Below, piece by piece: positions 53,599 to 64,000 of a DNA stretch of 64,000 bases (positions within the stretch are counted from its first letter, which is position 1; every line of letters begins with the position of its first letter). The stretch lies in the NCBI RefSeq assembly GCF_011082725.1, contig NZ_CP049715.1, positions 930,001 through 994,000 of the forward strand, in the 5' to 3' direction. Made by a program: the position numbers and the translations under genes. The notes beneath the pieces were generated by a model. It saw only the letters and a list, made by a program, of their open reading frames with translations. It made no database searches and had not been told where the DNA came from. This stretch comes from Apibacter sp. B3706 (GTDB lineage Bacteria > Bacteroidota > Bacteroidia > Flavobacteriales > Weeksellaceae).

Positions 53599-54158
53599 AA
53601 AGTTTAGTGTTTAAGGTTTATACTAAATTCAGTTATATAAAAATTAAAATAAATTAACTATCTGTTATTTTAATACTACAAATATATAAAATTATTTTAT
53701 TTATATAAATATAATATTTATCATATACAAATATTATAAAATTTTAGTATGATTTAATTAAAAAATATTTATTTTTTTTTATATAATTCATATTATTATT
53801 TTATTTATTTAAACTGTAAAAATTATTAAAAATAAAATTTAGTTTTTTTATGATAAAATGCAGTGAAGAGTGCTAAGTATTAATTTAAAATAGTGAAGGT
53901 ATATATTTAACAAAATTGATCCTCTACTACTCAGAGAAGATTTTTTAAATATATTAGTTAACAGCTTTTTAAGCTTACTATGTTAATGATAAATTTTTAT
54001 CATTACTTAAAATTAACTATGTAATATAATATTAAATTATCCTATCTAATAATATAAATGACTTATAGTAAAAAATATGTTTAAAAAAATAAATAACATA
54101 TAAAAATATCACTTCCATAGTAAGAAAAGTCTAATTTACTATAATATTATTTTTTATT

Positions 54159-54174
54159 TTACGGAATTCCGTAA
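54159..54174. repeat. 16-bp perfect palindrome
   Basis: TTACGGAATTCCGTAA, with an inner GC content well above the surrounding DNA. A dimeric DNA-binding protein or a structured RNA could explain it. No gene is adjacent. Confidence 0.5.
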
Positions 54175-54310
54175 TCTAACCTTTTTATTTTTTTATAACT
54201 TCAAAAAATATCATATACAAGTTATTTTTCAATAGTAAGAGTTTTATATATATAATTTGAATGTTAATCTAAAATATTTCACTTGCAGAACCATCTGATT
54301 AGTCTTTAAG

Positions 54311-54341
54311 AAATCCTGAGATAAAAACTCAGGATTTTTTT
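54311..54341 (+). terminator. Orphan intrinsic terminator
   Basis: Perfect 10-bp stem AAATCCTGAG/CTCAGGATTT with loop ATAAAAA, then a T8 run. No plus-strand protein gene precedes it within 900 bp, so it may close a small RNA. Confidence 0.75.
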
Positions 54342-55071
54342 ATTTAATAATTGTTACTTATATATACAAATATAATTCCATGTTTTTGTCAAAATGTTAT
54401 GTATCCAACTTAGCTATCTTAATTTTATATGTATAGTATTTAATTGTTAGATTAATAAAATATAAAATTAATTTAAGTTCAGATAAGATTTTTCTTACCT
54501 CTTTTTTAAACTTAAATTGTATATAATCAATTATTTTAATTTAATCAATATATTTTAATAAAACGTTTTAAAAATATTTATAAGTTATATTAAATTTTTA
54601 AAATAGTTAAAATATGATTTATCTCTTATGAATAAAGCAATGTATAAGAGATCATAAAATATTTATATTAAAAGAAAATAATTTTTTTCTTTTATTAAGC
54701 TAAATAAATAAAATAATTTATATATTTGAAAAAAAATAAGAATTTATATATTAAAAAGAGATGTATTTTTTAAGTTGTAATATATAAATTCTTTAATTCA
54801 AATTATATTATAAATATCTTATTATAAAAAAATTGTAAAGCTTTATTATTTATTAAATAGAAGAATTGCTCTTCAAAAAATTGGTTCTTAAAAAAATATA
54901 ATATAATTGAAATTTTATTTAAAATTTATGAATAACCTTATATCTTTTGATTAAAAATTACTAAAAAATTTAGATTAGGGATTATGGTCTTTCATAAATG
55001 TTTGAATGAACATATTAAATCTTAATTAGTTAGAAATAAAAAAATAACAATAATATATTAATTTAATTAAA

Positions 55072-55797
55072 ATGAAAATTTTTATTATCATTATTATAAC
55101 ATTAGCAATTTTGTATATTATATGGAGATATTATGAAATATCTCAATGCCGTATTGACGAAGATAATCCTTTAAAATCTAATAATAATTTTACTCCTTCA
55201 AAAACGATTATTGGTTATAGTAAATTTTACACATTTAATGTAGATGATAAAAGAAAACAGATAGCTATTTTAAAAGGTAAATTTGAACCTATATATATTG
55301 ATTTCAAAGATATTTTAGGTGTTAAATTCATTGAAGATATAACATATTTTAATTTATCAAATAGGAAATTTGTAGCAGGAGGTTTTTTTAGCCGTATTTT
55401 TTTTGGTTTGTTTGGAACAGTTGTAGGAGGTTCAACCAAGTCTCATCATAAACAAAAATATGTTACAAAAGTATGTGTTAAAATATTTATTAAAGATATA
55501 AATAATTCAGCGGTACTAATTGATTGTTTTGACCCTGGTACAATGCTTTTTTTTAAAAGACATAGAGTTGATATAAGTAAATTATTTATTAGAAAAGTAT
55601 ATCAAATAGGAGTTCGAGATGCAAATGAAATAAAAGATACCATAAATATGATCATTAAACATACTCCAAAAAATTTATCTGAAGATATTTCTTTTAAAAT
55701 TTCAAATCAATTATTGAAATTACATGAATTAAAAGAAAAGGGAATTTTGACAGAATCAGAATATCTTTCTCAAAAACAAAAAATATTAAATACTTAA
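55072..55797 (+). CDS. SHOCT-domain membrane-anchored protein
   Basis: 241 residues. The N-terminal anchor is IFIIIIITLAILYIIWRYYE. The central region looks like a PH-like beta domain (KQIAILKGKFEPIYIDFKDI, LGVKFIEDITYFN, KYVTKVCVKIFIKDI, AVLIDCFDPG). The C-terminal 30 residues form a SHOCT segment (QLLKLHELKEKGILTESEYL), which often mediates oligomerisation. The protein may sense or bind something at the membrane; function is unknown. It stands alone in the AT-rich zone, 275 bp from the orphan promoter-poor stretch. Confidence 0.75.
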   Translation: MKIFIIIIITLAILYIIWRYYEISQCRIDEDNPLKSNNNFTPSKTIIGYSKFYTFNVDDKRKQIAILKGKFEPIYIDFKDILGVKFIEDITYFNLSNRKFVAGGFFSRIFFGLFGTVVGGSTKSHHKQKYVTKVCVKIFIKDINNSAVLIDCFDPGTMLFFKRHRVDISKLFIRKVYQIGVRDANEIKDTINMIIKHTPKNLSEDISFKISNQLLKLHELKEKGILTESEYLSQKQKILNT

Positions 55798-56147
55798 CAA
55801 ATCTTTATTTAAATATAATGTTTTAAATTTTTTTATTGAAAATGATCTATATAGAATTAAAAAAGTTTTAAATCATACTATTATTTTAGCTAAAACTATA
55901 CGTAAATAAAGATTGAATGCGTCTTTAACTATAACTATTATCAGTGAAAATTAGCGTGATAGAGGAAGTGTTTATCCTTAAGTAAACTATATATTCTAAA
56001 CTAAAATAATTAATCATGCTTATTATTATTAAAATAGTTTAGATAATTTATTTATATTTTATCTAATGGTTCTTACTTACATTTTGATAACAATTTAGTT
56101 CATATTTACAAGTAAGATTTAAGAAACAAATAAAAAGGTTTAAATTT
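55798..56147. other. Gene-free spacer
   Basis: 350 bp between converging genes. It is AT-rich; I see no ORF, no clear terminator and no repeats. Confidence 0.5.
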
Positions 56148-57998
56148 TTAATTTATTGCTTCTAATATTCTGTTTTTTATAGGATACTTATATTGTTCTG
56201 TGCCATAATAAGTTAAATGATTCGTATCATACATATAAGGAATATAATTAGGAGATATCTTATTAATTTTATAGTTCATTAAATCAATATATTTATTACC
56301 CAAATAGTGTTTTAAGAAATTATTAATTTCAATTAAATTTTCTTTATTTTTTATATCATTTTTATATTCATTACCATAGGTGGTTTTTAAATAATAATAG
56401 GTTGGATAATCTATTGGATAAATATCTGTTTGACCTAAATAAAGTACTTTAATATTGTATTTGTTAAAATACGTATCAGTAAAATTAATTTTTTTTATTA
56501 ATTCATCTTTAGAATATGCTGCATAATTAGCACTTATTAAAACTAATTTAATTTTTTCAAGATTTAAAGGGAAATATATCTTAAAAAAATAGTTAAAAAA
56601 GCTAATTGGCCCCTTAAATTGACTCTTCGAATGCAACATGGGATATGTAGCATCTGCTGTCACTTGTATACAATTTATATTATTTTCTTCTAAAAGATTA
56701 TTGATTGTTTTGGAAAACATTCCTGCATGGCTATCACCCAATAATATAACATTTAATCTATCATTTTTTACTGCCCAATATTTTATATTATAATCTTCAA
56801 ATTTTTGAGTAGATAATAGATGTTTTTTGCCCAAATTGTACTGTTCATTAGCCTCATTACTATATTTATAATTAGCTGTTATGTTAATCAGATTTCCAAT
56901 TTTTTTAAAATAAATATTAGCATCAAGTTTTGTTAAAACAAATGAAATACAAAATAATATAAAGCTGCCTGATAACAAATATTTAACTTTTTTATCATAT
57001 TTTCTTTTTTCAACAAAATGAAAAGATAAAATTGAAAGTATAATTGACAATAAAATAAATAATAGTCTGTATCTAACCCGTGTATCTAAAGCAAAGAATA
57101 AACTTAGAACATAAAATGGCCAATGGTATAAATATATGGAATAGGATAAATCTCCAATATGATTAACCATCTTACTTTTGTATATACTAAAATCATAATT
57201 TATAGAAATTATTACTGAAATACAAAATACCGGAATAATAGTTATTAAATTCGGCCAAATACCATTGAAATCATTTATACAAGTGAAATAAATAATCACG
57301 ATAAAAGAAAGAATGGTGATCAATATTTTATATTTTTCAGATATTTTTTTTAATTTATTTTCATTTAGAAAAGCTGCTCCTCCCAACATCATCTCCCAGG
57401 CTCTTGTATAAAAAATATAAAATGAAAAGGAATTACTATTACTGTTATGATATAACATTGAAATAAGAGAAAATAATATTAATAAATAATAAAATTTTTT
57501 AAATAGGCATCTATTGGTTAAATATAGTTTTCTTAGGATCAACAAGAGAAGGGGATATATAAGATAAAATTGCCACTCAACAGCTAAAGACCATGTATGA
57601 AGTAAAAAATTATATTGAGAAGATTGATCAAAATACCCACTATTCAAGTAGTAATAAATATTAGAAAAAAACAAACTACTGGAAAATGCACTTTTTAAAT
57701 AAACTAAAAATTGAGTTGGTAAAAGAAAAAATACGATTATTGAAAAAAACAAAATCATTACTAATAATGCAGGAAATATTCTTAAAACTCTACGTTTATA
57801 AAAATTCAATAAATTAAAATTATGCTGCTCAAATCCTGATAAAATGATTTTTGACATTAAATAACCAGATATTACAAAGAAAATGTCAACTCCAATAAAT
57901 CCTCCTTTGAAATAAGAAAATTTAAAATGGTATAATAAGACTGAGATAACAGAAAAAGCTCTTAAAAAAGAAATATCGTATCTGAATTTAGTAATCAT
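56148..57998 (-). CDS. OafA/YrhL-type O-acyltransferase with C-terminal SGNH domain
   Basis: 616 residues from ATG 57998; an in-frame TTG lies two codons upstream. An N-terminal acyltransferase-3 domain with ten or so membrane helices starts RYDISFLRAFSVISVLLYHF and contains GVDIFFVISGYLMSKII. The periplasmic C-terminus is an SGNH hydrolase-like domain: VILLGDSHAGMF with Ser423, and the D-x-x-H pair in YDTNHLTYYG. Such two-domain proteins move acetyl or other acyl groups onto surface sugars such as LPS O-antigen or peptidoglycan. It stands alone between gene-poor DNA and the integrated element, which suggests accessory status. Confidence 0.9.
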   Translation of the reverse strand: MITKFRYDISFLRAFSVISVLLYHFKFSYFKGGFIGVDIFFVISGYLMSKIILSGFEQHNFNLLNFYKRRVLRIFPALLVMILFFSIIVFFLLPTQFLVYLKSAFSSSLFFSNIYYYLNSGYFDQSSQYNFLLHTWSLAVEWQFYLIYPLLLLILRKLYLTNRCLFKKFYYLLILFSLISMLYHNSNSNSFSFYIFYTRAWEMMLGGAAFLNENKLKKISEKYKILITILSFIVIIYFTCINDFNGIWPNLITIIPVFCISVIISINYDFSIYKSKMVNHIGDLSYSIYLYHWPFYVLSLFFALDTRVRYRLLFILLSIILSILSFHFVEKRKYDKKVKYLLSGSFILFCISFVLTKLDANIYFKKIGNLINITANYKYSNEANEQYNLGKKHLLSTQKFEDYNIKYWAVKNDRLNVILLGDSHAGMFSKTINNLLEENNINCIQVTADATYPMLHSKSQFKGPISFFNYFFKIYFPLNLEKIKLVLISANYAAYSKDELIKKINFTDTYFNKYNIKVLYLGQTDIYPIDYPTYYYLKTTYGNEYKNDIKNKENLIEINNFLKHYLGNKYIDLMNYKINKISPNYIPYMYDTNHLTYYGTEQYKYPIKNRILEAIN

Positions 57999-58164
57999 TT
58001 TCAAAAATATAAATTTCCTATTAATTTTTATTTTTTCTTACGCTTTCATTACCAACAAATCCATAATAATTTACCGAAAAAAATTTTTAAAACTTAAAGC
58101 AGGCATTATGTAGATGCAAGTTTCGATTATTTGCCAATATGCTATTTCCGATAATTAAAAAAAT

Positions 58165-58382
58165 TTTGATAATACAGATTTTATAAAAAATTTACCTACC
58201 TATCCTATATCTGTTGACAGAAAATTAAAGGGATATTTTATTATGATTGAAGTTAAGGGCAATAGTATGGATAATAGTAATAAAGAAAGTCTTCAAGAGG
58301 GGGATTTGATATTGAGCAGAAACATTAAAAAGACTATTGGAAATTAGAAATAGTAAATAAAACGGAAGTAGTAAAAATTTAA
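58165..58382 (+). pseudogene. Decayed S24-type phage repressor fragment
   Basis: The frame from 58165 reads FIKNLPTYPISVDRKLKGYF, then IMIEVKGNSMDNSNKESL and QEGDLILSRNIKK, the S24/LexA-like serine-peptidase signature (the GNSMD serine). After residue 57 one base is missing near 58332. The next frame continues as DYWKLEIVNKTEVVKI to TAA at 58380-58382. Upstream to about 58095 related sequence has several stops. The helix-turn-helix half and the Lys of the dyad cannot be read. It is a broken phage-type repressor. Confidence 0.72.
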
Positions 58383-58469
58383 TGTAAAATTGTATTAACT
58401 AGTTAAATTTTCTTAGTACCCTCTCTTTTTTAATAAATGAGTATTTTATAAAAATTTAATTTATTCTTA

Positions 58470-58673
58470 CTACTTTGTATTTCTTGATTTAAAATATTTC
58501 GTTAAAAGTAGTTGCCTATACTCTTCCATTATCTTTTGTTTTTCTGTCATAGGCTTAGGTTTTAATTTTTTTTCTTACTTTTCTTTTACTTTAACATACC
58601 CCATTTTTTTCAATATTTTTTTCAAATCTTCTTCTGGGATTGCATTTAATATTTTTTCGTATGGATCTGACAT
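58470..58673 (-). pseudogene. Small phage-type ORF broken by one in-frame stop
   Basis: From ATG 58673 the frame gives a 32-residue peptide (MSDPYEKILNAIPEEDLKKI, then LKKMGYVKVKEK) and TAA at 58575-58577. After this single stop the same frame goes on for another 34 residues (KPMTEKQKIMEEYRQLLLTK) to TAG at 58470-58472. One substitution of TAA to AAA would give a 67-residue lysine-rich protein. Either it is a recent nonsense mutation or a 32-residue gene with chance extension. Three operator-like boxes lie just upstream. Confidence 0.5.
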
Positions 58674-58687
58674 TTTACTTTTTATTA

Positions 58688-58728
58688 TTTAGAACAAAAA
58701 AAATTCTTGTTCTATATTTTGTTCTAAA
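58688..58728. promoter_or_regulatory. Three TAGAACAA boxes
   Basis: Copies at 58690-58697 (plus strand), 58707-58714 and 58719-58726 (minus strand); the outer two form a 12-bp inverted repeat TTTAGAACAAAA/TTTTGTTCTAAA. They lie 15-55 bp before the small broken ORF, in the place expected for operators. Confidence 0.5.
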
Positions 58729-58794
58729 AATTTAAAAAAAAGCCAAATTATAACTCAACGAATTTTACTTATATACCCTATTATTTCAGTAGGT

Positions 58795-58879
58795 TACTTG
58801 AATTTTAGTGTTTTTTTTTTCTTGTTTTGTGACCACGGAGGGATTGAAAAAAAGAAATTACAATACTAAAATTCAAGTA
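58795..58879. repeat. 15-bp inverted repeat with a tRNA-end-like core
   Basis: Arms at 58795-58809 and 58865-58879 are exact complements (TACTTGAATTTTAGT) and enclose 55 nt. On the minus strand the loop contains TTCAATCCCTCC followed by GTGGTCAC, similar to a tRNA T-loop, T-stem and acceptor 3' end. No complete tRNA is present. It follows the repressor gene stop and could be a terminator or an attachment-site relic. Confidence 0.45.
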
Positions 58880-58908
58880 TATATAAATATATGGGTTATG
58901 GAATTGTT

Positions 58909-59262
58909 CTATTTTTTATCTGTTATTTTTAAACGCTTCTCTATAAATTCAATTCTTTGTAACAATGACTTGTCGCTATCTTTTGAATTTTCTGCATTTT
59001 TTTCAACAACAGCTGGATTATTTAATTCTTCCTTTTCTAACAAGGTCCCCTCTCCCATGAATATAAAGTTTCGGTTAAATTCCTTAAATCTTGAAGCTAT
59101 ATGACGTAAGTGAATAATAGATACTTTCTTTTTTCCTTTTTTAATATCATTCCAACCAACCTTTGATTCACCTATGATTTCGGCAAATTCTTTTTGGCTT
59201 CTTATAATTTTATTATCAAAAAGGTATTCAAAAATTTTTAATAAAATATCTATATCATTCAT
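58909..59262 (-). CDS. Phage-type HTH repressor without S24 domain
   Basis: 117 residues. The N-terminal 65 residues have the Bacteroidota phage-repressor helix-turn-helix (FDNKIIRSQKEFAEIIGESK, VGWNDIKKGKKKVSIIHL) and the FIFMGEGTLLEK link that normally leads to an S24 peptidase. Here the chain instead ends in a short polar coiled-coil (SLLQRIEFIEKRLKI). It lacks a self-cleavage domain, so control by SOS-type cleavage is not expected. It faces the gene at 59410 across three operator copies and probably represses both directions. Confidence 0.75.
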   Translation of the reverse strand: MNDIDILLKIFEYLFDNKIIRSQKEFAEIIGESKVGWNDIKKGKKKVSIIHLRHIASRFKEFNRNFIFMGEGTLLEKEELNNPAVVEKNAENSKDSDKSLLQRIEFIEKRLKITDKK

Positions 59263-59284
59263 TATTAATAGATTATATAAATAA

Positions 59285-59365
59285 AGTATGAGAAAATCTT
59301 ATATTTTTTTTGTTTCAGTATGAAAATATCTTACTTTTTTCTTTCTAGTATGAAAATATCATACT
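59285..59365. promoter_or_regulatory. Three phased operators AGTATGA-N5-TCATACT
   Basis: Copies at 59285-59302, 59317-59335 and 59347-59365. The third is a perfect inverted repeat; the second differs at one base and the first at two in the right arm. Starts are 32 and 30 bp apart, about three helical turns. They fill the 147-bp gap between two divergent HTH genes, like a lambda-type operator set. Confidence 0.75.
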
Positions 59366-59409
59366 ATATTTGTTCTCAAATAAAATATAAGTCGATATAC
59401 TTTTTAATT

Positions 59410-59628
59410 ATGAACAACAAATCTAGCAAAAAAAATGAATGGAATATTCTATTAATTAAAAGAATAGCAGCAAAGTGGCAAGTCACAGAAACTTTTGTTC
59501 GACAAATTTTGTCAAAAAAAGCGAAAAGTACAACGGCCGAAACTATTAGTAAGGACTATTTTGAATGTCAAAATAAAATAAAACCGCATTTAGATAAAAT
59601 AAATGAAATTTTAGAATCTATAAAATAG
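59410..59628 (+). CDS. Small HTH protein, divergent from the repressor
   Basis: 72 residues from ATG 59410; longer in-frame starts would lie inside the operators. After a polar lead (MNNKSSKKNEW) comes a helix-turn-helix-like stretch (LLIKRIAAKWQVTETFVRQI, LSKKAKSTTAETISKDYF) and a helical tail. The position opposite a repressor and behind shared operators makes it a Cro-like or early regulator candidate. Function is inferred only from sequence pattern and place. Confidence 0.7.
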   Translation: MNNKSSKKNEWNILLIKRIAAKWQVTETFVRQILSKKAKSTTAETISKDYFECQNKIKPHLDKINEILESIK

Positions 59629-59664
59629 ATAGTTTATAGTTAGTGATCTTTTTTTCTTGTTTAT

Positions 59665-59690
59665 AAGGAATCCTTTTATAAGGATTCCTT
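59665..59690 (+). terminator. Hairpin in the leader of the primase gene
   Basis: Perfect 11-bp stem AAGGAATCCTT/AAGGATTCCTT with loop TTAT. It is 16 nt before the primase ATG, with an A-rich tail rather than T-run on the plus strand. It could stall transcription or shape translation. Confidence 0.4.
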
Positions 59691-59705
59691 TAAAAAAAAT
59701 AAAAT

Positions 59706-62700
59706 ATGAAATATATAAAGAAAGAGTGTATAGATAAAATATTGGATGCTATTGATGTAGTTAGTGTTATAGAAAAATATGTTAACATTAAAAAATCAGG
59801 TTCAGGATATAGCGCTTTATCTCCCTTTGGCTCAGAAAAAACAGCTTCTTTAATGATCTCCCCGTCTAAACAAATTTGGAAAGATTTTTCAACAGGGAAA
59901 GGAGGTAGTGCCATTAATTTTATCATGGAATACAAATCTATAAGTTTTTATGAAGCATTGTTAGAGGCGGCCAAACTAAATAATATTGCTATAGAATACG
60001 AAGAATTTACCAATGATGAGGAGAAAAATAAATATGAAGATTATCAAATAAAAAAAAGAATAACACAATTAGCCTGTGATAAATATATTAAGTTTTTCTC
60101 TGAATTGCCTCCAACACATTGGGCACAGAAGATGATCTCTAATAGAAAATGGGATGATTCAACTATACTTCAATTTAAAATTGGATATGCGCCTAAAGAA
60201 AAAAATAATTCTTTTTCGAAAGAAGCCATCGAATTAGGCTATTTAGCAGCAGCAAAAGAATTAGGTCTGACAAAAACCAATGAAATAAATCAACTAGCTT
60301 ATGATTTTTTTATTGACCGTCTTGTTTTTCCAATACAAAATTTTTATGGAGAAGTCATTGGTTTTGGTGGCAGAAGAAATGATGCTCCGGAAAATTTAAA
60401 GTATGCCAAATACTTAAATTCGACTGAATCCATACTTTATAATAAGAGTAAGGTCCTTTATGGTCTTTACCAGGCTAAAGGAGAGATAAGGAAACAAAAT
60501 AAAGTTATTCTTGTTGAAGGATATTCAGATGTAATTTCTTTACATCAAAACGGGGTGTCTTTTGCTGTTGCTACTTGCGGTACGTCTTTAACTGTTGAAC
60601 ACACCAAAATATTAAAAAAACTGTGCGCCCATGTAATAATATGGAGAGATGGAGATGTAGCCGGACTTAAAGCTACATTTAGAGATATTGATATTCTTTT
60701 AAAGGAAAGCTTTAAAGTTTCTACTATTATTTCTCCCGAAGGCAAAGATCCTGATGATCTTGCGCGTGAAAAAGGAACTGAATTAATCCAATGGGTAGAA
60801 GATAATTTGACTGATGCCGTAAACTGGAAGGCTGTAAATTTGATTAAAAATTGCGAAACGCCTGACGATATATCTTTTGCGGTGCAAAAAATATGCGATA
60901 CTCTATGTGTTATTTCCGATGAAATTAAAAGAGATCTATATATTAAAGATCTTTCTAAAGTTTTAAAACAAAAACAATCCGTTTTAAAAAAAATTGTAGA
61001 TGAAAAGCTTGATAACTTAAAATCAACTAAAACTGATTTATCTACTACTACTAATGTAAAATTAGATGTTCTTCTTCCTCCCGGGGCGAATCAAGAACAA
61101 TACATTAAAGATAGATTTTGTGAAATAGATAAAGCCTATTTTTTCCAATCAAAAGATGGTAATTTTTTTAAAGGGACCAATTTTGTTATTCAAGCCTTAT
61201 TTCACATCTACGGAAGAAATGATAATAAAAGGCTTTGTGAAATCACTAATGAATTAGGCCATAAACGCTTAATTGATTTTGATTCTAAAGATTTTGTTAA
61301 TTTTTCTAAAATACAAGAAACATTAATTCAAGAAGGATTTTTTTTCTTTGAAGGTAATGTATCTACACTGCATTTTAAATTGGTTACAAAAAAAATATTA
61401 AATGATTTCATAATGGCCTATGAGTTAAAAACATTAGGCTGGCAAAATGAAGGTTTTTTTGCTTTTGCTGATGGAATTTATTTTGAAAATCAATTTAAAA
61501 GAACCAATAAATATGGAATTATTCAGATTGAAGGATTGGATGAAGAAAATTCAGAATATAGAGAAAACATTAAACATTATTACTCCCCTGCTTTTTCTGA
61601 GATATATAAATATAACAGAGAAGATGATGACCCGTACGAAAACGACAGATGTTTTGTTTATAGAAAGTCCCCGATAAGTATAAATCAATGGATGTCTCAA
61701 TTGGTAAAAGTATATGGAGATAAAGGAATTGTGGGGATAGGCTTTGTGTTTGCTTCTTTATTTCGCGATATTTTAATTAAAAGATTTTCTTTTTTTCCTC
61801 ATTTAGGATTATTCGGAGAAAAAGGATCCGGAAAATCAAGATTTGGAGACTCTTTGCATAACTTTTTCTTCTATAAGATGAATCCATTTGATTTAAACTC
61901 GGGAACCGTTGTAGGATTTACCAGAAGACTGGCTCGAACAAAAAACGCAATATCCTTTTTAGAAGAATATCACGATAATATACACGATGTTATGTTTCAA
62001 TCGATGAAAGGAGCTTATGACGGACGAGGACGAGAAAAAGGGCAAGCTACCGTTGATAATCGAACTTCAATTACAAATGTTAATTCATCTTTAATATATG
62101 CCGGTCAATATTATCCGGTACGCGATGATAATTCCTTAGCTACCAGATCTTTACTTTTATCTTTCATTAAAAAGCCTTATACAACGGAAGAAATTCAAGA
62201 ATATAATTTATTAAAGAGTTGGGAAGAAACCGGTTTATCCTCGCTTATTTTAGATATTATCAGGCATAGAGAAGTTGTTGTAACTAAATTTCACGAAATG
62301 TACGCATTAATTGCCAAAAATCTTAAAATGGATTTAGCAGGAACAGAAGTTCAAGAACGAATGATTAATAATTATCTGGCAATATTAACGCCGATCTATA
62401 TTTTATGGGATAATTTTAATTTTCCTTTTACGCAAGAATATTTTTACCGTCTTTGTAAAGAATTGATAATTAATTCTTCAGATATGATAACAGAAAGTGA
62501 AGGTTTAGCAGATTTTTGGTCAATGTTTGAATATCTAGTACATGAAAATAGAATAAAAGAGAATGAAGATTTTAAAATAATTTCACCTAAAACCGTAAAA
62601 TTAGGCGTAAAAAAAGGAGGTAAAACCATAACGGAAGAATGGTATAACACTAATTCAGATAAAGTTTTATATATTTATTTTAAGAAGATTTATCAAGATA

Positions 62701-62939
62701 TGCTTAGAGAATCTTCACGAAGAGGTACGTCTTTAATGAATGAAACTACGTTAAAAAATTACTTTCGAGCTAAAAAATATTTAATTGGTGGATCTGCAAC
62801 AACCAGACTGGGCGAAAGATCACAGAGTTGCTATGCTTTTAATTATTCTTTATTACACTCTCAGGGAATATTAAATATTGAAAAAACTTACATTTTAGAT
62901 ACTTCTTTAAGTTCTAAAGAAAAAGAAATTCCTTTTTAA
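59706..62939 (+). CDS. Mobile-element primase with TOPRIM and P-loop ATPase domains
   Basis: 1077 residues. The N-terminus aligns with the DnaG zinc-ribbon region (ALSPFGSEKTASLMISPSKQ, DFSTGKGGSAINFIM), but Cys and His ligands are replaced (SPFG, DFSTG), so no zinc binding is expected. The primase core follows: VIGFGGRR (218-223), TOPRIM EGYSDV at 271, RDGDVAG at 314-320 and KDPDD at 347-351. A P-loop domain has GEKGSGKS at 704-711, a Walker B-like ISFLEE at 749-754 and a later TRSLLLSF arginine. This primase-helicase layout belongs to phages and integrative elements. It is probably the replication protein of the element. Confidence 0.85.
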   Translation: MKYIKKECIDKILDAIDVVSVIEKYVNIKKSGSGYSALSPFGSEKTASLMISPSKQIWKDFSTGKGGSAINFIMEYKSISFYEALLEAAKLNNIAIEYEEFTNDEEKNKYEDYQIKKRITQLACDKYIKFFSELPPTHWAQKMISNRKWDDSTILQFKIGYAPKEKNNSFSKEAIELGYLAAAKELGLTKTNEINQLAYDFFIDRLVFPIQNFYGEVIGFGGRRNDAPENLKYAKYLNSTESILYNKSKVLYGLYQAKGEIRKQNKVILVEGYSDVISLHQNGVSFAVATCGTSLTVEHTKILKKLCAHVIIWRDGDVAGLKATFRDIDILLKESFKVSTIISPEGKDPDDLAREKGTELIQWVEDNLTDAVNWKAVNLIKNCETPDDISFAVQKICDTLCVISDEIKRDLYIKDLSKVLKQKQSVLKKIVDEKLDNLKSTKTDLSTTTNVKLDVLLPPGANQEQYIKDRFCEIDKAYFFQSKDGNFFKGTNFVIQALFHIYGRNDNKRLCEITNELGHKRLIDFDSKDFVNFSKIQETLIQEGFFFFEGNVSTLHFKLVTKKILNDFIMAYELKTLGWQNEGFFAFADGIYFENQFKRTNKYGIIQIEGLDEENSEYRENIKHYYSPAFSEIYKYNREDDDPYENDRCFVYRKSPISINQWMSQLVKVYGDKGIVGIGFVFASLFRDILIKRFSFFPHLGLFGEKGSGKSRFGDSLHNFFFYKMNPFDLNSGTVVGFTRRLARTKNAISFLEEYHDNIHDVMFQSMKGAYDGRGREKGQATVDNRTSITNVNSSLIYAGQYYPVRDDNSLATRSLLLSFIKKPYTTEEIQEYNLLKSWEETGLSSLILDIIRHREVVVTKFHEMYALIAKNLKMDLAGTEVQERMINNYLAILTPIYILWDNFNFPFTQEYFYRLCKELIINSSDMITESEGLADFWSMFEYLVHENRIKENEDFKIISPKTVKLGVKKGGKTITEEWYNTNSDKVLYIYFKKIYQDMLRESSRRGTSLMNETTLKNYFRAKKYLIGGSATTRLGERSQSCYAFNYSLLHSQGILNIEKTYILDTSLSSKEKEIPF

Positions 62940-62944
62940 TTGAA

Positions 62945-63169
62945 ATGAAAAACCCGTATTTAACAGAGATTGAGGAATTTTTTGACAATTTAATTAATTA
63001 TCCAAAAAATATAAAAATAGATGGTCATTTATATTCTGAAAACGCGATTAAAAAACTTATTAAAGCTGAAATAATCATCCTTAAAAATCAATCGGGTAAA
63101 AAAGGATATCTACCGTATTATTATAGACTGCTTAAAATTTATAACATCATAAAAAAAGAAAAACCATGA
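62945..63169 (+). CDS. Small hypothetical protein of the element
   Basis: 74 residues, starting 5 nt after the primase stop. Sequence begins MKNPYLTEIEEFFDNLINYP and ends with a basic helix (YYYRLLKIYNIIKKEKP). No family recognised. Close spacing suggests co-transcription with the primase; its stop overlaps the next start by 4 nt (ATGA). Confidence 0.6.
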   Translation: MKNPYLTEIEEFFDNLINYPKNIKIDGHLYSENAIKKLIKAEIIILKNQSGKKGYLPYYYRLLKIYNIIKKEKP

Positions 63170-63273
63170 AAAATTTAAAAATGACCTTGAAGTTTACTCC
63201 CGGAGACGTTGAAAAAGCAAATTTCATCATTGCTCAATTTATTGAGCGTTTAGAGAAAAGTAAATCTTTATAA
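63166..63273 (+). CDS. Tiny coupled ORF (35 residues)
   Basis: The peptide starts MKNLKMTLKFTPGDVEKANF and goes on to IIAQFIERLEKSKSL, a short strand followed by an amphipathic helix. Its ATG overlaps the previous stop as ATGA, which supports coupled translation. No function can be given. Confidence 0.5.
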   Translation: MKNLKMTLKFTPGDVEKANFIIAQFIERLEKSKSL

Positions 63274-63310
63274 ATAAATCAAGATAAAAATATAGCTAAA
63301 TTATAAAAAA

Positions 63311-64000
63311 ATGGAATACTCAAAAAAACAAATTACAAAAAAAAATAATAATCCTACTATCGGTTATAATGATTATACAGAGTATATAACTGAAGGAGAA
63401 GGATCCTGTAACGTTATAATGGGTAGTACTTCAAAGGGTTTAACGTTAGGGTATAAATCGCATAGCATTGCTATTGGTGATAATTCGGACAGTAAAACAA
63501 ATGGAGATAACGCATTTAGCGTAACAATGACTAATTATACGGAAAGTATAACTAAAGGTCCGGCATCACATAGTGTTACCATGGCTTTTTATTCAACTAG
63601 TAAAACAATAGGTAATATTGCTCACAGTGCAGTTTTTGGATATAAATCTACAAGTATCACTACAGGTAAAGAGTCTCATAGTGTAGCTATGGATACTTGT
63701 TCACAGAGTTATACATGGGGGGAAAATTCACATAGTGTGACGCTTAGTGATGGTTCTCTATCTTATGCAAAAGATGAAAATTCCACAGCAATTGCTATGG
63801 GTAAATATTCTCGAGTTAAATCTGAAAAAGGTTTTATTGTTATAGCACGATATGACAAAGCCGGAAATTTAAAAAAAATTTACAGCGCGAAGGTAGGTAA
63901 AAAGATTTTAGGAGTAAAAATTAGATCAGATCGATGGTATGGATTTAATAAAAAAAGGAAATTTAAAGAATATATAGACGAACAAGTAATAATTGACTAA
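63311..64000 (+). CDS. Beta-solenoid repeat protein with separate C-terminal domain
   Basis: 229 residues, complete at the right edge (TAA 63998-64000). Residues about 15-175 repeat a 9-residue unit: a 3-residue turn such as GxN or GYK, then a 6-residue strand such as SHSVTM or STSKTI. Two alternating unit types give an 18-residue period (for example GKESHSVAM then DTCSQSYTW). This should form a left-handed roll like YadA heads, but with a different period. The C-terminus (GFIVIARYDKAGNLKKIYSA, KVGKKILGVKIRSDRWYGF) resembles DUF7666-like ends found after such repeats in Bacteroidota mobile elements. No signal peptide is present. Confidence 0.7.
   Translation: MEYSKKQITKKNNNPTIGYNDYTEYITEGEGSCNVIMGSTSKGLTLGYKSHSIAIGDNSDSKTNGDNAFSVTMTNYTESITKGPASHSVTMAFYSTSKTIGNIAHSAVFGYKSTSITTGKESHSVAMDTCSQSYTWGENSHSVTLSDGSLSYAKDENSTAIAMGKYSRVKSEKGFIVIARYDKAGNLKKIYSAKVGKKILGVKIRSDRWYGFNKKRKFKEYIDEQVIID

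Follow-up and report, generated by a model that had tools for sequence, protein, structure and literature searches.

Does the right-hand end of the DNA analysed here, a 64,000-nucleotide stretch of Apibacter sp. B3706 (the window; G000:C1:930001-994000, on a single 2.30-Mb contig, C1), hold a satellite dependent on a helper or part of a phage in its own right, and how might such an element start its replication? An initial annotation, made from the window alone, had read 58100-64000 as the left portion of an element of phage or satellite type, degraded and carrying its own primase, and for the present analysis reading was extended rightward past the window. Window positions 58679-64000 are very probably the left end (attachment site attL, immunity and replication) of a complete-looking temperate tailed-phage prophage of about 40.1 kb (G000:C1:988679-1028977), with its own tyrosine integrase, at the 3' end of a tRNA-Arg(TCG) gene. 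With confidence a shade under even, the comparisons below further suggest that a widespread Bacteroidota temperate-phage lineage may replicate as a replicon of the type of the staphylococcal pathogenicity islands (SaPI), in which a DnaG-type primase joined to a self-loading helicase like Cch and SaPIBov1 Rep would recognise its own iterons (TGTTGAAC, TGTTGGAAC or TGTGGAACT) by an AT-rich tract 3' of the primase gene.

Gene content and related phages

Open reading frames (ORFs) of at least 35 aa cover 94% of the DNA between the attachment-site (att) repeats and ORF reading saw no interrupted gene there, on which grounds the description of the element as degraded was dropped. From left to right the early genes are a repressor, operators, a small divergent gene, a primase-helicase, a DUF6965 protein and an 18-residue-repeat protein, followed by two paralogues (the first matching DUF1508), an ASCH-like protein (below Pfam's cut-off) and a methyltransferase-like protein. 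Then come an S49 head protease, a capsid-position protein, a SufE homologue, a protein at the position of the small terminase subunit (TerS), the large terminase subunit (TerL), the portal and fibre genes and, lastly, a D12-class methyltransferase, an amidase endolysin, a second helix-turn-helix (HTH) regulator, the tape measure, two large tail-region proteins and the integrase. The features, in window coordinates as far as the window reaches, were as follows.

58679..58845, no strand: attL, a direct repeat of attR (C1:1028814-1028977), 97% identical over 167 columns and fully so over the final 111 bp
58909..59262, minus: predicted HTH lysogeny repressor in the CI position (phrog_8 transcriptional regulator, E 9.9e-7; Pfam HTH_3 only at E 0.1)
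59285..59365, no strand: three operator-like repeats of AGTATGAAAATATCATACT between the divergent regulators (starts 59285, 59317 and 59347; spacing 32 and 30 bp)
59320..59628, plus: small divergent gene, in the Cro position by its place only; likely start the internal ATG at 59410, past the operators
59706..62939, plus: 1077-aa fusion of a DnaG-type primase (about residues 1-430; TIGR01391) with a predicted Cch/SaPIBov1-Rep-like AAA+ helicase (about residues 440-1077; Foldseek)
62945..63169, plus: DUF6965 protein, 74 aa (Pfam, E 8.3e-12)
63166..63273, plus: 35-aa ORF overlapping the preceding stop, translationally coupled by position
63311..64000, plus: 18-residue-repeat protein, beta-solenoid-like (phrog_4433, E 1.4e-10); its stop codon ends at 64000
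Beyond the window, starting 4.6 kb past its end: S49 head protease (phrog_53, E 1.9e-46)
Beyond the window: TerL (phrog_2, E 3.5e-13)
Beyond the window: portal (43.6% identical to that of phage Leef_1)
Beyond the window: amidase endolysin (phrog_435, E 6e-32)
Beyond the window: tape measure (phrog_1533, E 1.6e-48)

Integrase, terminase, portal, capsid module, tape measure and lysis genes, taken as the marks of a tailed phage, were all found, the capsid gene being assigned by position and by 43.1% identity to Leef_1 gp42 only. The annotation was right that no structural phage genes appear in the window, because the window ends before the head protease begins.

The terminase profile drew relatives from 10 genome contigs and the best 80 of 86 viral contigs; the genome contigs we take, from the genera in their titles, to be flavobacterial. 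Of 197 genomes sampled in the family, 13 match this profile, our own included and several weakly, and of the four that were read further one, G011, has a relative of the primase over residues 1-1046 (27.7%). Homologues follow the same gene order, for which the annotation had advised looking, in Leef_1 and in G011, and the IMG/VR contig L077 shares 98.9% identity with the element over 12.4 kb. Of five matches that one search gave in the phage collection, two are a 2-kb E. coli phage record and a Salmonella genome record; MT836179 looks bacterial by its ORFs. Polaribacter phage Leef_1 (Helgolandviridae, Leefvirus; NC_062750), described in passages of its report as a siphovirus with an integrase (PMC8776804), keeps the head and packaging genes in the order seen here, with identities of 44.6% for TerL, 43.6% for the portal, 43.1% for the capsid-position protein and 36.8% for the protease. 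It differs in having no match to the prophage primase at E 1e-3, no SufE match, a different repeat motif (GATTACA) and an integrase annotated at the matching place of only 157 aa; 15 of 51 listed ORFs match it at E 1e-3, 13 of them in the head and tail blocks and the others as short pieces of an HTH gene and of the integrase, while the replication gene differs. Cellulophaga phage Ingeline_1 (Duneviridae, Ingelinevirus; NC_062749) shares the primase-helicase (38.9% over 1097 columns), the integrase (34.4%), the late-region HTH regulator (29.5%) and a tail protein (23%), and carries four copies of a repeat with consensus TGTTGGAACTG, whereas the rest of the genes in common are only distantly related (TerL 25%, protease 30%, adaptor 24%) or undetected at E 1e-3.

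The layout of repressor plus primase, and a helicase fold near that of SaPIBov1 Rep, would suit a satellite or integrative element needing a helper phage for its particles, as the annotation had suggested. The element has its own terminase (TerL), portal, head protease, tape measure and endolysin, and is for this reason read as a prophage and not as a satellite; its relatives include the isolated phages Leef_1 and Ingeline_1, and the satellite reading, which supposes an element without a structural set of its own, was rejected as extremely improbable once structural genes were found to the right of the window. What stands of the earlier description is an integrative element of phage type that encodes its own primase and of which this is the left part, with regulators and replication gene; it is neither visibly degraded nor a satellite, and integrase, TerL and capsid-position protein were all met on reading to the right. 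It is improbable, though less so, that the prophage is defective, having lost excision or particle formation through lesions or missing small genes invisible to sequence reading: it is known here from sequence alone, the capsid and several tail genes were assigned only by position or distant similarity, and L077, the close copy used for comparison, spans only 12.4 kb, with a minority of the tail, early and integrase genes. Against this, genes g11-g27 (except g13) align at full length with L077 across its 98.9% identical DNA, Leef_1 matches most of the length of the TerL, portal and capsid-position genes, as Ingeline_1 does for primase and integrase, and the ORF cover is high. As a prophage the element is ordinary, one more member of a lineage common in Flavobacteriia.

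Attachment site and history of the locus

The right-hand repeat, attR, runs at its end into the 3' end of tRNA-Arg(TCG) (C1:1028961-1029035, minus strand), with about 17 bp of the tRNA within the repeat, and the 395-aa tyrosine integrase (C1:1027563-1028750; Phage_integrase, E 8.3e-17, with SAM-like and arm-binding domains) lies directly inside it. A search of the genome at E 0.001 gave no matches to the repeat beyond these two copies. An inverted repeat had been noticed earlier; there are two (58795-58827/58847-58879 and 58679-58699/58717-58737), both part of the att site, the former pair flanking its core. A point against the main reading is the length of the repeat, 167 bp and far more than the tRNA portion inside it.

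An empty site, which the annotation had proposed to look for, was found in G004, where the left flank (up to our C1:983765) and the right flank (from our C1:1028950) lie on one contig 2.1 kb apart, and the DNA between them gave only a weak match to the second HTH regulator of the phage (32.6%, E 1.3e-8). The stretches compared in G002, G003, G006, G007 and G008 are single or split flanks, and those in G001 and G005 short loci only. The phage primase was absent from all eight same-genus genomes, which gave only DnaG-type matches (in G003, plus one short weak match), TerL had no match in any of the eight, and long integrase matches there were just 22-31% identical. That the same genes might stand here in all relatives, without integrase or boundary repeats, is thus contradicted on both halves.

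At the same tRNA G007 has a 57-aa piece of TerS (67%) and G003 a 47-aa piece of integrase (46%), and therefore the site appears to have been used before. This bears on an additional history, adding to the prophage reading rather than competing with it, in which an older related phage at this tRNA would have decayed and left behind an S24-like relic and an extra 149 bp of identity past the tRNA core. We consider this history evenly balanced. The att identity does run about 149 bp past the tRNA, nothing corresponding to this stretch follows the tRNA in the eight relatives' loci compared (short weak matches only), there are relic-like frames at 58.1-58.7k, and the fragments in G007 and G003 are of phage origin; on the other side, attP alone could carry a long identity and the S24-like relic lacks a family match. 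The "S24 repressor relic" of the annotation is an open piece of 33 aa with no Pfam match at E 1, and its "broken small ORF" is seen in a six-frame reading only; both lie left of attL and so outside the element. Further out beside attL, window positions 54000-58600 are very A+T-rich (15-23% G+C) and hold an acyltransferase/SGNH gene and relic-like frames, with a counterpart in the compared relatives only for the first part (to about C1:984217); this is possibly an older island at the same tRNA.

The primase-helicase fusion

The fusion of a primase with a P-loop domain was correctly recognised in the annotation. Its primase part matches TIGR01391 with E 3.4e-105 over residues 4-419, and the zinc-ribbon, catalytic-core and TOPRIM domains of DnaG were all found in this N-terminal part. 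The helicase half (the C-terminal 638 residues) was modelled from an 11-sequence alignment with a mean predicted local distance difference test (pLDDT) score of 83, and the best solved-structure matches of the model in Foldseek were Cch of the staphylococcal cassette chromosome SCCmec (5dgk, E 1.2e-14) and SaPIBov1 Rep (8tch, E 4.6e-12), with template-modelling (TM) scores by target of 0.62-0.71 and a sequence identity of only 10-12%. The helicase half is thus predicted to have the Cch/SaPIBov1-Rep fold class, the likeness to these proteins being one of predicted fold; unlike them, the prophage helicase is fused to a DnaG-type primase and stands inside a full tailed phage. In this respect the earlier intuition of satellite-like replication has an echo, the predicted structure of the helicase half being nearest to SCCmec Cch and the SaPI initiator. 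According to passages of one paper, DUF927 is present in Cch, which is a relative of SaPIBov1 Rep, and the iterons that SaPI Rep recognises lie just past the 3' end of the gene encoding it (PMC7581432).

Among predicted viral proteins the best matches of the model were primases of Flavobacterium phages 23T and 6H, several phage proteins annotated as "DUF927 domain-containing" coming lower; the DUF927 signature itself is matched by two of the 11 aligned members and not by the window protein. The "DNA primase" genes of Ingeline_1, laban6-1 and 18 matched Porphyromonas phage records resemble the fusion, helicase half included, and no close relatives of the single primase were found in viral contigs with the patterns used. 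The zinc-ligand residues of the CHC2 ribbon, at what we presume to be their positions in both primases, look replaced in the phage primase (window 59706-60000) and in the host DnaG (L047, C1:55498), and their loss was rejected as an oddity of the phage primase because the host's chromosomal DnaG has lost the ligands too.

A repeat cluster as candidate origin

Between C1:997177 and C1:997388 there are seven copies of GTTGAAC or its complement in 212 bp, directly before g14, the first conserved gene of the late block. No other 7-mer in the element clusters as densely; in 500 Markov shuffles of its noncoding part the count never exceeded three, and two host stretches gave two and three. Immediately 3' of the primase (62900-63330) no direct repeats were found. 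Two of the repeats in the cluster lie to the left and five to the right of a 77-bp tract of 10% G+C, one of several equally AT-rich tracts in the element, and we think the cluster may be an iteron origin read by the primase-helicase fusion, a proposal that we hold at close to even confidence. In the parts of the literature examined iteron origins were not described for this phage lineage.

On this proposal a CI/Cro-type switch (the HTH repressor, the divergent small gene and the three operators) would keep the prophage silent, and on induction the fusion would be made. Its Cch/SaPIBov1-Rep-like helicase half would recognise the GTTGAAC iterons round the AT-rich tract, open the origin and load itself, the fused DnaG-type half would prime replication, and the head, lysis and tail genes further right would then be expressed, with packaging by the phage's own terminase.

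Related loci were surveyed for similar clusters, a cluster being at least five copies of some 7-mer within 300 bp (20 shuffles of each row reached five at most). The survey had 102 rows, with loci of less than 9 kb left out and with duplicates (e.g. L098/L196, L107/L199, L118/L119 and Leef/L139) and the near-identical pair of our own locus and L077 included. Clusters were found in 46 rows, and in 18 of the 28 rows with a detected relative of the primase. When 19 loci holding primase and cluster together were hand-chosen (16 from earlier sets and three fetched phages, L206 being laban6-1 (L288)), the cluster lay 3' of the primase gene in 18, from 45 bp to 5.4 kb past the last aligned base, and before the primase only in L209; the cluster ends used are partly those of fixed 300-bp windows, and L097 and L111 were matched over part of the primase only.

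Consensus motifs were compared in 30 phages chosen for a cluster of at least five copies (Ingeline_1 has four) and a matching primase, L205 and L081 being left out; as these phages were preselected for both, they therefore test the company that the motif keeps and not its frequency. The motifs of 19 belong to one family (TGTTGAAC, TGTTGGAA, TGTGGAACT), and motif similarity follows the identity of the primase-helicase (rho 0.29-0.47, P 0.002-0.010, 30 phages), compared with rho 0.11 (P 0.25, 22 phages) for TerL. A cluster was also present in two of four further records, those of phage 1H and of one Porphyromonas phage. A search of 23 records, cluster-bearing throughout, found the helicase part of the fusion in 16, a chromosomal-type DnaG only in one and no match in six, two of these six being fragments of less than 14 kb.

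Several observations weigh against an iteron origin read by the fusion. Fewer than five copies were found in 10 of the 28 rows with a detected primase relative, and at least five in 28 of the 74 rows without a primase detected on the locus (several carry a primase elsewhere on the contig). The motifs of 11 of the 30 phages are unlike the common one, the second Porphyromonas phage and the Microcystis phage among the four further records are without a cluster, and in the 19 phages having all genes the correlation with TerL rises to rho 0.26 (P 0.052). In the prophage itself g14 follows the cluster at a distance of 98 bp and the primase gene lies 4.2 kb away from it, and the fold matches have a root mean square deviation of 7-9 Å over the whole alignment.

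Motif similarity also follows g14 (rho 0.38, P 0.002, 19 phages), which makes the protein that reads the repeats ambiguous and leads to a different explanation, namely that the GTTGAAC cluster serves to control the late operon, as a binding site for the g14 product or some other activator. A g14 homologue is present in 33 of the 46 cluster rows (duplicate contigs included), and the start of the cluster is always upstream of it, by 108-652 bp in 32 rows and 1368 bp in one. Against late control of this kind, 13 of the 19 loci that hold both primase and cluster gave no detectable g14, and while some of these loci end soon past the cluster, the records of Ingeline_1, 1H, laban6-1 and Porphyromonas phage017a are complete. 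The distance from the last aligned base of the primase to the start of the cluster is 45-511 bp in L202, L203, L206, L208, L212, 1H and laban6-1 (L206 and laban6-1 being one phage), and Leef_1 shares g14 (28%) and the head genes but has a different motif and no match to the primase profile. We regard late control as rather unlikely. If the origin proposal is true, origin and initiator would move as a unit among phages whose head modules are otherwise dissimilar, and satellite initiators would be connected with phage primase-helicases; the SaPI/SCCmec initiator family would be tied to a large phage set, with a simple prediction of origin plus initiator. The replication module is more useful than the prophage itself, nearby repeat clusters naming candidate origins in many such phages.

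Immunity region and small early genes

The HTH repressor and the operators noted by the annotation are both present. The palindrome AGTATGAAAATATCATACT has four matches in the window where 0.16 would be expected, a number that none of 100 shuffles reached; one of the four lies elsewhere (11289) and one is the palindrome's other-strand count. The small divergent gene is there too, although the HTH ascribed to it was not borne out, as searches of Pfam and other profile libraries including PHROG gave no credible family match, HTH included. A second HTH regulator in the late region (L003:2986-3375, minus strand), distinct from the gene in the CI position and matching the HTH regulator of Ingeline_1 (29.5%), is possibly a superinfection-immunity gene.

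The two tiny coupled ORFs after the primase overlap as described. The protein that follows was called a solenoid, and its repeats are clear, with an 18/9-residue period that none of 500 shuffles equalled, although "solenoid" must be taken as a sequence-level reading because the fold prediction failed (pLDDT just 35). It is rare, being found in this genome and as five weak matches among 295 class genomes, with no close relatives in viral contigs by the patterns used, and is a putative cargo of the early region. The sole relative at E 1e-3 in the phage collection is a protein of Acinetobacter phage fLi-Aba02 (H34; 30.5%, query residues 1-220), annotated as a putative ADP-ribosyltransferase.

Genes of the late region

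The tandem paralogues past the window (L002:148-872) are of 118 aa, the first matching DUF1508 with E 3.2e-17. Two tandem fibre genes (L002:14497-16404) are near-identical over about their first 175 residues and divergent beyond, with repeats of 300 nt at 98% and 249 nt at 83% at a spacing of 960 bp, and could recombine, changing the fibre.

A gene for a SufE-family sulphur acceptor lies in the head operon (L002:8630-9025, that is C1:1002630-1003025; PF02657, E 3.1e-27), overlapping the preceding gene and standing 14 bp before the TerS-position gene; its product keeps the GCQS cysteine and shares 41% identity with the SufE that the host itself encodes. Of 42 related loci in which both neighbours are on the plus strand, only the near-identical L077 has sufE in this slot, and the idea of SufE as a widely shared phage gene was dropped, only L077 matching among 90 TerL loci (not all of which reach that far). 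Passages of another study report sufE in viromes of marine oxygen-minimum zones (PMC8940887). The slot between the homologues of g20 and TerS holds, by reading, ParB-like/DNA-methyltransferase ORFs in other loci (e.g. L091, L080, L130, L134, L156 and L093), and in the Microcystis phage an annotated polyphosphate kinase adjoins the small terminase in the same slot (L291:24469-25044), so that this place in the late operon appears to take cargo genes.

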